Shown: positions 29,282 through 31,413 of the stretch, one piece after another
How the letters are laid out: every line of letters begins with the position of its first letter
How positions within the stretch are numbered: position 1 is the first letter of the stretch
Assembly: GCA_020073345.1 (NCBI GenBank)
Contig: JAIQFI010000008.1
Location: 106,108 to 161,299 of the forward strand
Direction: 5' to 3'
DNA: 55,192 nt
Source: Terriglobia bacterium
GTDB taxonomy: Bacteria; Acidobacteriota; Terriglobia; Bryobacterales; Bryobacteraceae
The notes under the pieces: generated by a model
The model's input: the letters and a program-made list of their open reading frames with translations, nothing else
Database searches by the model: none
What the model was told of the DNA's origin: nothing
Translations under genes and position numbers: made by a program

Positions 29282-29356
29282 GGCGCGGTAGCCAAGTGGT
29301 AAGGCAGAGGTCTGCAAAACCTTTATTCGGGGGTTCGATTCCCCCCCGCGCCTCCA
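29282..29356 (+). tRNA. tRNA-Cys (anticodon GCA)
   Basis: A complete 75-nt cloverleaf. Acceptor GGCGCGG pairs with CCGCGCC. The anticodon loop CTGCAAA carries GCA. The T arm is GGGGG-TTCGATT-CCCCC. The discriminator is U (typical of tRNA-Cys) and CCA is encoded at 29354-29356. The 3' part from 29291 is duplicated at 31347. Confidence 0.96.
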
Positions 29357-29439
29357 GCAACCTAGTTCCTAAGTTGCACAATCCCTAGAGCTCGACGACT
29401 CGATACCGTTTGCGGCATCTGCGGCATTAGCGGCAATTC

Positions 29440-29583
29440 ATGGGTCAAAAATCGCGCGTTCTTTGGTATGATCGAAGCGGAAAAGATTCTGTGGTCTGGC
29501 GGGCTCCCTGGCGGGCTCGTTATGAAGGCGGGTTTTCAGGCCCGCGAATAAAAAAGCAGCAGGTTGCGGAATCTTACGAGTAG
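29440..29583 (+). CDS. Short open frame of uncertain status in the element
   Basis: ATG 29440 opens 47 codons (MGQKSRVLWYDRSGKDSVVW, then a basic stretch ending IKKQQVAESYE). It has no clear ribosome site and no family, but its position just inside the left repeat is where integrase or att-proximal genes often lie. It might be the relic of a longer gene. Confidence 0.25.
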   Translation: MGQKSRVLWYDRSGKDSVVWRAPWRARYEGGFSGPRIKKQQVAESYE

Positions 29584-29815
29584 CAAAGAGAGTGAGCCTA
29601 AGGCGCGGTGCTAGGGCGCCACCGGGATGTCTGTCCCGGACGGCAGGTAGGCAGCAACTCTCCTCATGGCTGGGTTAGTGGCTTTCAAAGAGCCGCAATC
29701 CGGTCGCGTCGAAACACGAGGAAACGTGTCCGGCGTAATGAGGAGAAGTTGCGCCGTGACCAACGTGGCACTTTTCCCAACATTGCGCAGGCATCGATCC
29801 TCCGGAAAGGTGGTC
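29584..29815. other. Leader region of the HTH gene with a CCGGGA-N6-TCCCGG inverted repeat
   Basis: No convincing gene. An inverted repeat (29622-29627 with 29634-29639) could be an operator or small hairpin. The frame of the downstream HTH gene stays open back to 29666, but the extra 50 codons show no domain character. Confidence 0.35.
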
Positions 29816-30061
29816 ATGATGCCGGTACAGCGCACCAGCACCTACCTCTCGACAGAGGAGGTTGCTCAAATGTTGGGATTCTCGGTTCGCACCGTGACTC
29901 TCTGGTTTAACCAATGGAAAGACACGGGAGGCCAGTCCGGCATTCCCGGCTTCAAGATAGGGAAGTCTTGGCGGGCTGACCGCAAAGAAATCGAAGGCTG
30001 GATCGCACGGCAGAAGGCGCCCTTTCAGGCAACCAACACAGCTTTGCGGCAAGCTCGGTAG
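29816..30061 (+). CDS. Excisionase-like helix-turn-helix protein
   Basis: An 81-residue protein starting at ATG 29816 after a GGAAAGGTGG stretch. STEEVAQMLGFSVRTVTLWF, then FKIGKSWRADRKEIEGWIAR, is the winged-helix MerR/excisionase pattern (helix-turn-helix, then a basic wing reading KIG-x-x-WR). Such Xis-like proteins bend att DNA to favour excision, or act as small regulators. Its place inside the tRNA-flanked element supports the excisionase reading, although no integrase is present. Confidence 0.75.
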   Translation: MMPVQRTSTYLSTEEVAQMLGFSVRTVTLWFNQWKDTGGQSGIPGFKIGKSWRADRKEIEGWIARQKAPFQATNTALRQAR

Positions 30062-30112
30062 CGGCGGTAGCTGCGGGTCGGAATCTACCACCATCCGGCG
30101 CATGCTGGGCGC

Positions 30113-30238
30113 ATGGAAAGATTCAAACTGCTACTTGCCCTAGTTGTCATGGTTGTGTCGACACTGATCGCCGTGGCCAAGTTCCTTCTGATTGAGACTC
30201 ATGATTTCTGGCTGTACGTTAAGAACGTCCAGTGGTGA
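30113..30238 (+). CDS. 41-residue single-pass membrane peptide
   Basis: ATG 30113 to TGA 30238 encodes MERFKLLLALVVMVVSTLIA, then VAKFLLIETHDFWLYVKNVQW. One strong membrane helix (about 5-25) is followed by a short amphipathic, aromatic tail. It lies 51 bp after the HTH gene on the same strand. Hydrophobicity and a complete frame suggest a real small protein, but no family is recognised. Confidence 0.45.
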   Translation: MERFKLLLALVVMVVSTLIAVAKFLLIETHDFWLYVKNVQW

Positions 30239-30352
30239 ACTGCTTCGGCTCAGACCAGGGCCTATCCACGAGCCGCGCCGCCAAGGCGATGAGAGGTCCA
30301 TCGCTGGTGGCCAGCCGGTCGAGGCTAAGGTTCAGACTGCGGGAGCAGTGAA

Positions 30353-30991
30353 CTAGAAGTTCTCAGCACGGCGCTTCAACTCGCGTAGTCGCGCCCAGAA
30401 TTCCGGATTGTATCGGGGAAGACTCTTTCGAAGGCGTGGCCAGAGCCTCAAGTACTTTTTGACCGCCCTATCCATGCAGTCGTCAAACACCAGATCTACC
30501 AGACCCTGCCGGACATTGCTTCTGGCACGCCCCTCCTCCCAAGGGCGGAAGTCAGATGGGATCAACTCCAGTCGACTCAGACCCAAAACGGCAAATCCTC
30601 TTGCTGCTCTCCGAATACGCTTAGCTCGAATCACTTCCGGGCAAACGTTACCAAGATCCGGCGTCAACAGACAGAAGGCAATTACAAAAGGTGTAGCGAC
30701 CTCTAATACGGGGGTCAGGAGGATCGTTAGACTCACCCTGGCGAGCGTGTGTGACAGCTTGAAAGCTGCCAAAACGCAACCAATTCCATGCCAAAGTTTA
30801 GAGAGACTTCCCGGAAGGTCACTGCAGTGCGCCAGCCATTCTTCTTCCATCCGAGCCTGAGACTCGGGAGGGAATTGCTTCGAAGCCCAGCGAATCAACT
30901 TGGCAGGCAGCCAAAACATCAAATCTTTAGCTTCATCAGCTAGTACCTTGCTGACTGTTGCTACCAATAGCGCAAGGACGGCGGTTTTCAT
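30353..30991 (-). CDS. Membrane protein coupled to the PadR regulator
   Basis: Start at ATG 30991, overlapping the padR stop as ATGA, so the two are translationally coupled; upstream in-frame ATGs lie inside padR. The 212 residues include a hydrophobic N-terminus (KTAVLALLVATVSKVL), a SQARMEEEWLAHCSDLPGSLSK segment, two likely membrane helices (LSKLWHGIGCVLAAFKL and LEVATPFVIAFCLLTPDLG), and a basic C-terminal domain. EEWLAHL-like segments next to membrane helices recur in uncharacterised regulator-linked proteins. Function unknown; it may be the target or cofactor of the PadR protein. Confidence 0.65.
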   Translation of the reverse strand: MKTAVLALLVATVSKVLADEAKDLMFWLPAKLIRWASKQFPPESQARMEEEWLAHCSDLPGSLSKLWHGIGCVLAAFKLSHTLARVSLTILLTPVLEVATPFVIAFCLLTPDLGNVCPEVIRAKRIRRAARGFAVLGLSRLELIPSDFRPWEEGRARSNVRQGLVDLVFDDCMDRAVKKYLRLWPRLRKSLPRYNPEFWARLRELKRRAENF

Positions 30992-31287
30992 ACGAATGCC
31001 TTCACTAATGGCTTCCACTCCGCCGCTTCTGCGCGCGCTCGCTGCACGCCGATACCAGTCACGCTGTATAGCCTTCGTCGAGGCTTCGGAGCTGTCTCCT
31101 CTGGACTCTCCCACTTACTCTTTATCCAACCTGCCTCTTCAAGCCGAATCAGAATCGGATACAAAGTGCCGGAGGCTAGCCCGCTTAGATTTGCGATTTT
31201 GCTGCCTGCGAGCGGTTCAGCGTTCCCCATCAAGATGGACAGGATCAGCATGGTCTGGCGGGTCAGCTGTGGAGGGCGCGTCTTCAT
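30988..31287 (-). CDS. PadR-family transcriptional regulator
   Basis: Start at ATG 31287 gives 99 residues; the longer frame to 31440 is a translation of the tRNA fragment and is an artefact. A winged helix typical of PadR: LTRQTMLILSILMGNAEPL, then GSKIANLSGLASGTLYPILI (recognition helix), then LEEAGWIKSKWE and RRRLYSVTGIG (wing). The C-terminal dimerisation helix is short, as in the PadR-s2 group. In Acidobacteria such regulators are often linked to membrane or permease genes. Palindromes overlap its promoter. Confidence 0.88.
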   Translation of the reverse strand: MKTRPPQLTRQTMLILSILMGNAEPLAGSKIANLSGLASGTLYPILIRLEEAGWIKSKWESPEETAPKPRRRLYSVTGIGVQRARAEAAEWKPLVKAFV

Positions 31288-31288
31288 T

Positions 31289-31317
31289 GTAGTGACTCTA
31301 CGTAGAGACTCTACTAC
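31289..31317. promoter_or_regulatory. Overlapping palindromes, likely PadR operator
   Basis: CTCTACGTAGAG (31296-31307) is a perfect 12-bp palindrome. TAGAG-A-CTCTA (31303-31313) overlaps it, and GTAGT / ACTAC arms flank the set. They cover the region between the -10 and the padR start, where PadR autorepressors bind. Confidence 0.6.
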
Positions 31318-31337
31318 GAATATCGAGCTACTGTCAA
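31308..31337 (-). promoter_or_regulatory. padR promoter (TTGACA-N18-TAGAGT)
   Basis: A perfect -35 TTGACA (31337-31332) is followed, 18 nt later, by TAGAGT (31313-31308) inside the palindromes. The transcript would start near 31301, only about 14 nt before the ATG. The -35 lies about 10 bp from the tRNA fragment, so promoter and repeat form the element's edge. Confidence 0.6.
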
Positions 31338-31346
31338 TCTTTTTTG

Positions 31347-31413
31347 GCCAAGTGGTAAGGCAGAGGTCTGCAAAACCTTTATTCGGGGGTTCGATTCCCC
31401 CCCGCGCCTCCAG
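31347..31413 (+). repeat. 3' fragment of tRNA-Cys (distal att-like repeat)
   Basis: Sixty-seven bases identical to 29291-29357, from GCCAAGTGG through the encoded CCAG. The nine 5' nucleotides of the tRNA are replaced by a T-rich stretch, so the acceptor stem cannot form and the copy is not a functional tRNA. Confidence 0.9.

Follow-up and report, generated by a model that had tools for sequence, protein, structure and literature searches.

How did a second, incomplete copy of a tRNA-Cys gene come to lie 2 kb downstream of the intact gene, and what is the DNA that separates the two? The question is raised by a stretch of 55,192 nucleotides of a Terriglobia bacterium of the Bryobacteraceae (contig JAIQFI010000008.1, positions 106,108 to 161,299; in the following, the window). 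The DNA between the two copies (the interval) is, in our estimation, moderately likely to be a remnant island devoid of an integrase, which insertion by a tyrosine integrase left at the 3' side of tRNA-Cys, at a hotspot of such insertions. The interval DNA is probably foreign and probably no longer mobile by itself; the scar and its cause are ordinary.

The repeated tRNA-Cys end as a probable attachment site

The intact tRNA-Cys gene (anticodon GCA; found by ARAGORN and Rfam) occupies 29282..29356 on the forward strand and, also by comparison of upstream flanks, represents the attachment-site gene and the attL-like side of the interval. A 67-bp block starting within it (29291..29357) recurs without a single difference at 31347..31413 on the same strand, with 2,056 bp from start to start, which confirms the first-pass annotation in its claim that the 3' part of tRNA-Cys is perfectly repeated, in direct orientation, 2.06 kb downstream. 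The block reaches from the D-arm to one base beyond the tRNA 3' end, such that the distal, attR-like copy is devoid of the first 9 bases of the tRNA. When extended, the match comprises 73 bases with 1 mismatch; the likeness of the flanks ends 6 bases beyond the 67-bp block, and the DNA 3' of the distal copy differs from that 3' of the proximal one, for which reason we rejected a tandem duplication of the interval as a whole. The window contains no further exact direct 24-mer repeat, so that a chance origin of the block is excluded. ARAGORN called one tRNA gene and not the distal copy; the Rfam tRNA model still scored the distal copy at 44.8 bits, compared to 70.3 bits for the intact gene (gathering score 29). 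The GC content of the interval is 0.552 versus 0.605 for the window.

When viral contigs were scanned for the 49-base 3' half of the tRNA, one exact match was obtained, situated in contig IMGVR_UViG_3300050015_000312 (63,355 bases) at a site where no tRNA gene was called. This match lies 5 bases after the stop codon of an intact open reading frame (ORF) for a tyrosine integrase of 426 amino acids (aa), which is preceded by a helix-turn-helix (HTH) ORF with a weak match, below cut-off, to an excisionase domain. A 17-bp motif is found once on either side of the 49-base core (L114, 4464-4720); in attP sites of the lambda type, arm sites likewise lie on both sides of the core. Viral contigs contained no match to the other T-arm variant of the tRNA, and a search among them for relatives of the viral integrase found this enzyme alone. 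Within the genus (own genome G000 and 22 others, G001 to G022), two open pieces of a broken integrase directly follow the tRNA-Cys gene of G009, being 47.4% (285 aa) and 48.0% (75 aa) identical to the viral enzyme.

The 67-bp repeat is matched in 21 of the 23 genus genomes, the own one included. Six truncated copies in five genomes (own contig C12, G009:C127, G011:C179, G011:C1, G015:C490, and G006:C101, the last of 30 bases) start at repeat position 18-20, in the anticodon stem, as does the viral match; this count omits G013:C134 and G016:C4, which are cut by contig ends, as well as six rows of 81-85% identity that start at 25-27 and are maybe other tRNAs. Direct repeats with a period of 7-13 follow 8 of 25 tRNA-Cys ends or copies, the window among them, versus 34 of 600 random stretches. 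It is credible from these sequence comparisons that the tRNA-Cys 3' half is used as an attachment site, and the scar of tyrosine-integrase type that had been proposed on first inspection finds support in the virus with its adjacent integrase and in the related broken integrase of G009.

Concerning the truncated copy on own contig C12 (L043, 8240-8332; also in L003), it is followed by a perfect 9-bp inverted repeat and lies near a resolvase gene. The window contains an imperfect counterpart of this short inverted repeat directly 3' of tRNA-Cys (29357..29377). Near the C12 copy, a degenerate integrase fragment lies beside what resembles, by eye, the 3' end of another tRNA. A giant second island, extending from the distal copy in the window to the truncated copy on C12, was considered and dropped: C12 exhibits weak, scattered matches to the downstream flanks of the relatives, and the genes of the right flank have relatives elsewhere.

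The site and its flanks in related genomes

Flanks of 18 tRNA-Cys genes were compared by tblastx, i.e., those of the own genome and of 17 of the 22 others, with one genome per species (G003 and G005 gave no match; the comparison was made without G015, G017, and G020). Upstream, the flank of the window matches those of 12 of the 17 other genomes. The downstream comparison comprised 17 sequences (none from G016, and 179 bases from G013) and revealed flanks common to G006 and G012, to G006 and G014, to G007 and G008, and to G018, G021, and G022, besides three weak pairs. Apart from weak matches, the downstream flanks of the relatives are unrelated to that of the window. The own genome contains part of the block that follows tRNA-Cys in G006 and G012; it lies on contig C48, next to genes that resemble M16 peptidases by eye. 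The genes to the right of the distal copy are related, at up to 84% DNA identity, to DNA in many genomes of the genus, among the matches listed mostly away from the tRNA contig; the exceptions among these matches are one of 73% in G014, on the tRNA contig at a distance of 87 kb, and one of 208 bases at 69%, situated 1.7 kb from the tRNA-Cys of G004. As most of these relatives are situated away from the tRNA contig, the right flank gives no definition of an empty site.

Of the interval itself, blastn found two pieces in the 22 other genus genomes, one of 570 bp (83% identity) in G001 and one of 314 bp (70%) in G013, both away from the respective tRNA-Cys contig. As these pieces occur separately, the interval is a mosaic. 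The piece on G013:C147 corresponds to the padR gene described below and is situated beside two small ORFs that resemble a toxin-antitoxin pair by eye. Further copies of the element bounded by the same repeat, for which the first-pass annotation had proposed to search, were not found at blastn sensitivity in the 23 genus genomes.

G011 possesses an interval of its own, 2.77 kb in length (L044, 5288-8187), between tRNA-Cys and a truncated copy; it encodes an ExbD-like protein, one protein without a match, and a DUF2092 protein, and no integrase was found in it. It opens with eight copies of a 10-base direct repeat; of the 300 bases next to each end, those at the tRNA alone showed such repeats, as in the window. 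Relatives having both tRNA copies with unrelated DNA between them had been named beforehand as favouring an old tandem duplication, and G011 shows this arrangement in part, with copies 2.77 kb apart and unrelated DNA between them. We read the case as an independent insertion instead, because the 5' limits of the copies differ and because the DNA after the distal copy of the window does not repeat the DNA after the first. In G013 (L047, L048), the DNA looks alike behind each of two tRNA-Cys 3' ends, which would fit a local duplication.

Genes and a predicted RNA between the copies

No recombinase was found between the copies, in agreement with the earlier claim: the five ORFs of the interval that were scanned match HTH and PadR-type families only in Pfam, and the best E value was 2.4 when the interval was compared by blastx to 18 own-genome integrase ORFs and the two G009 pieces, such that the idea of an old integrase remnant was dropped. 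Neither relaxase, coupling-protein, or VirB4 families nor packaging, capsid, or replication families or satellite hallmarks (the latter groups by Pfam and PHROG) were matched by the scanned ORFs.

The first gene of the interval (29816 or 29819..30061, forward strand) encodes an HTH_17 protein of 80-81 aa, which is excisionase-like or a regulator. It passes the cut-off of Pfam HTH_17 (39.4 bits versus 27) and matches PHROG 66 (excisionase and regulator) with an E value of 7.4e-9, stays below the cut-off of the curated NCBIfam excisionase domain TIGR01764 (26.0 versus 28.8 bits), and matches the HTH of a defence system, MAD1, likewise below cut-off (35.6 versus 80 bits). The excisionase function ascribed to it in the first-pass annotation therefore stands as a likeness to PHROG 66 and is not settled by the curated model. 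No match was obtained among PDB sequences, and its structure model is weak (pLDDT, a model confidence score, of 67), with a best fold match at E 0.33. Distant relatives exist at seven loci in genome contigs, at one viral locus, and in 23 plasmid records of less than 60% identity; the similarity to the HTH ORF that precedes the viral integrase amounts to 35% over 55 aa. In comparison to its G001 counterpart, the gene shows purifying selection as estimated from this one pair of sequences, with 0.117 nonsynonymous (dN) and 0.335 synonymous (dS) substitutions per site.

The HTH gene is followed on the same strand by an ORF of 41 aa (30113..30238), hydrophobic by eye, with a weak match to a PHROG family of unknown function (E 0.004); its G001 counterpart contains a 2-base gap, from which the ORF would either be broken in G001 or not be a gene. 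On the reverse strand lie a PadR-family regulator (30988..31287; Pfam), the DNA of which has the 70% relative in G013:C147 mentioned above, and an ORF of 212 aa (30353..30991) with hydrophobic stretches by eye, without a family match in Pfam, PHROG, or NCBIfam and with one weak match to a plasmid. The PadR protein matches TIGR03433 ('padR_acidobact') below cut-off, which together with the gene content would fit an acidobacterial host. The two genes overlap by ATGA, so that the operon of padR and a membrane protein seen on first inspection is a prediction from this overlap. A palindromic inverted repeat in front of padR (31283..31320) is perhaps its operator. A library of defence systems produced weak matches only (mad1 with E 0.007 for the HTH, Csa3 with E 3e-4 for PadR).

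The left part of the interval and the G001 piece share one order of parts: 9-bp repeats, leader spacer, folded RNA, HTH gene, and small ORF. The three 9-bp direct repeats (TTTGCGGCA/TCTGCGGCA/TTAGCGGCA; 29409..29435, forward strand), detected by repeat and pattern scans, are candidates for arm-type integrase sites or for an operator of the HTH module. With at most one mismatch, the 18-mer TTTGCGGCATCTGCGGCA occurs in 2 of the 23 genus genomes, solely upstream of the two RNA-HTH modules, with no match to a reversed control pattern; the RNA follows at a distance of 234 bases (window) or 232 bases (G001). The leader spacer (29436..29642, forward strand) is close to its G001 counterpart in length and at chance similarity in sequence, having 80 identities compared to a mean of 73 (range 43-91) after shuffling, a global score that was reached by 75 of 200 shuffles, and a local score that was reached by 54 of 200. 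The DNA 3' of the HTH gene is identical at 131 of 185 columns, a value which no shuffle reached. In both spacers (29436-29642 in the window, the counterpart in L077), a short hairpin is predicted directly before the conserved RNA.

This predicted structured RNA (29643..29775, forward strand) forms a three-way junction in folding and in a two-sequence consensus, where all 41 consensus pairs hold, three being changed on both sides and five on one; with two sequences, such pair-preserving changes are suggestive of a conserved fold. The region 29560-29830 folds better than 200 of 200 shuffles (z -5.4). Rfam 15, applied to 28500-32500 at E up to 1, placed all four matches on the tRNA copies and none on the leader RNA. 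A coding extension of the HTH gene into the RNA is unlikely, as the six changes in the 94 bases before its start are spread over all three codon positions (3, 2, and 1 changes).

The RNA-HTH module is rare. A search with the RNA model in 257 genomes of the order returned three matches, one of which (G104) was rejected as lying inside a coding ORF, leaving true matches in 2 of the 257. Module DNA matches four of these genomes, two of them over just 25 bases, and the HTH protein matches five with E values of at most 1e-7, of which three show 37-47% identity. When 396 genomes sampled across the phylum were searched, the own genome and two matches of 37-38 bases were recovered. The module was not matched by exact-pattern scans of viral contigs or by blastn of plasmids, and a phage search matched the tRNA pieces alone. 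In G001, the module is situated on contig C82, some 3.6 kb after a serine recombinase, which precedes two ParB/RepB-like genes and a gene with sigma-70 region 2 (L079, 4498-8596); among the ORFs listed there, no tyrosine integrase was recognised.

Origin of the interval and its relation to known elements

The remnant island would have arisen when the gene recombined with an incoming element that carried the 3' part of tRNA-Cys, such that an intact tRNA was rebuilt on the left and the old 3' end became the distal copy. Through repeated rounds of insertion and deletion at the site, the integrase would then have been lost and the right flank altered, with the RNA-HTH-small-ORF module and the pair of PadR and the 212-aa protein left as cargo. 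Renewed movement would be expected only if another element of the same site joined the interval or supplied an integrase.

Several points weigh against this reading. It draws on genomes of other species, with no empty site of the same species among them, and the right flank is rearranged in comparison to the relatives, such that the direction of the event is not proven by these alignments. The distal copy extends into the D-arm, 17 bases beyond the 5' limit of the viral match and of the other truncated copies (at the 3' end, the repeat exceeds the viral match by one base), and therefore is not the plain product of the viral attP. In the interval, candidate arm repeats were detected solely on the tRNA side, in contrast to the viral site with its motif on either side; the 9-bp repeats are also present in G001 where no tRNA was found and may belong to the HTH module rather than to an integrase. 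Two of the eight repeat-bearing tRNA-Cys ends are probably unrelated, since the distal flank of the window lies in a gene tail and that of G008 is an A-rich run. Finally, the blastx comparison described above found no remnant of an integrase in the interval.

The distal copy with its unusual 5' limit also fits debris of accretion, in which the two copies would stem from two insertions, or from a deletion joining two, and the interval would never have been one element. Such a history is possible, even if we consider it rather unlikely: the parts of the mosaic are related to G001:C82 and G013:C147, each in other surroundings, a further truncated copy exists on own contig C12, and the right-flank genes have, among the matches listed, their relatives mostly on other contigs in other genomes; the 67 identical bases in both copies, however, suit one event.

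It appears improbable that the interval is a living non-autonomous element, both copies of which would be cut by an integrase supplied in trans from a phage or island of the tRNA-Cys class, with the HTH protein of the interval as excisionase. A matching integrase does exist in the virus, and no integrase was found between the copies in both genus genomes that possess tRNA-Cys and a copy on one contig (G000, 2.06 kb; G011, 2.77 kb); otherwise, there is little positive evidence for a satellite beyond an HTH gene under constraint, the product of which resembles that of the HTH ORF upstream of the viral integrase. The dependence on an integrase elsewhere in the genome, which the first-pass annotation had proposed, is not supported: in the own assembly (97.5% complete), no close relative of the viral integrase was seen among 27 matches to PF00589, all of them in retrieved stretches, the best-scoring tblastn match of the viral enzyme to these loci being 26.6% identical over 293 aa and shorter ones reaching 31%. 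Another class of integrase or a helper phage from outside is a possible source in trans. The missing second copy in the genus, the arm-like repeats on one side only, and the position of the closest HTH relative after a serine recombinase speak against mobilisation in trans as well.

A duplication without integrase, by which repair or slippage would have copied the tRNA end 2 kb away, is quite unlikely, for although the D-arm, absent from the viral match, is part of the copy and the tRNA-Cys ends of G013 resemble a local duplication, the match in the window stops 6 bases past the 67-bp block and the copy, like integrase sites, terminates with the 3' end of the tRNA.

The remnant island resembles cis-mobilizable elements (CIMEs) in its anatomy as judged from sequence, a likeness that leaves a descent from integrative and conjugative elements (ICEs) or integrative and mobilizable elements (IMEs) conjectural. 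Following the definition in PMC7563491, both consist of short cargo that is bordered by two att-like sites and lies at the 3' end of a gene, with no recombination genes recognised. Classical CIMEs measure 1.2-13 kb according to the same study, which cites 215 of them at the tRNA-Lys gene of Streptococcus agalactiae and describes them as detectable only in tandem with ICEs, decayed ICEs, or IMEs, where they lie farthest from the target gene; the interval, in contrast, directly adjoins its tRNA. With the viral contig, it shares the 49-base tRNA-Cys 3' half as attachment sequence; the virus, however, possesses an integrase, an excisionase-like ORF, and a two-sided motif, whereas in the interval an integrase is not recognisable and arm-like repeats lie on one side only. 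Phage satellites and tycheposons, as described in PMC10872708 and PMC11389934, are comparable as tRNA-linked cargo that may depend on others for transfer, but tycheposons are given there (PMC10872708) as 4-200 kb in length and carry a tyrosine recombinase, whereas the interval is about 2 kb long and none was found in it. For one acidobacterium, PMC3174227 reports numerous genes for integrases as well as candidate islands with tRNA genes, whereas none of its prophages is described as intact. A narrowly framed literature search found no report of a prophage integrase for tRNA-Cys in Acidobacteriota.

An insertion hotspot at tRNA-Cys is thereby documented in one bacterial genus and tied to a viral contig with a fitting integrase, and two cargo intervals without integrase (window and G011) are situated at it. 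The part that could be new is the RNA-HTH module, which with two known sequences constitutes a lead only. RNA determinants of specificity or immunity occur in some plasmids and satellites. By analogy, and as a speculation to which we attach a low probability, 29409-30238 might be a transferable control module carried by different mobile elements, consisting of operator repeats, a variable leader of nearly fixed length, the three-way-junction RNA, the HTH protein, and a small membrane peptide, in which the leader would act as the RNA determinant of specificity or immunity that decides on HTH synthesis. If the variable leader sets specificity, the module would represent an unrecognised class of regulatory RNA of mobile elements.

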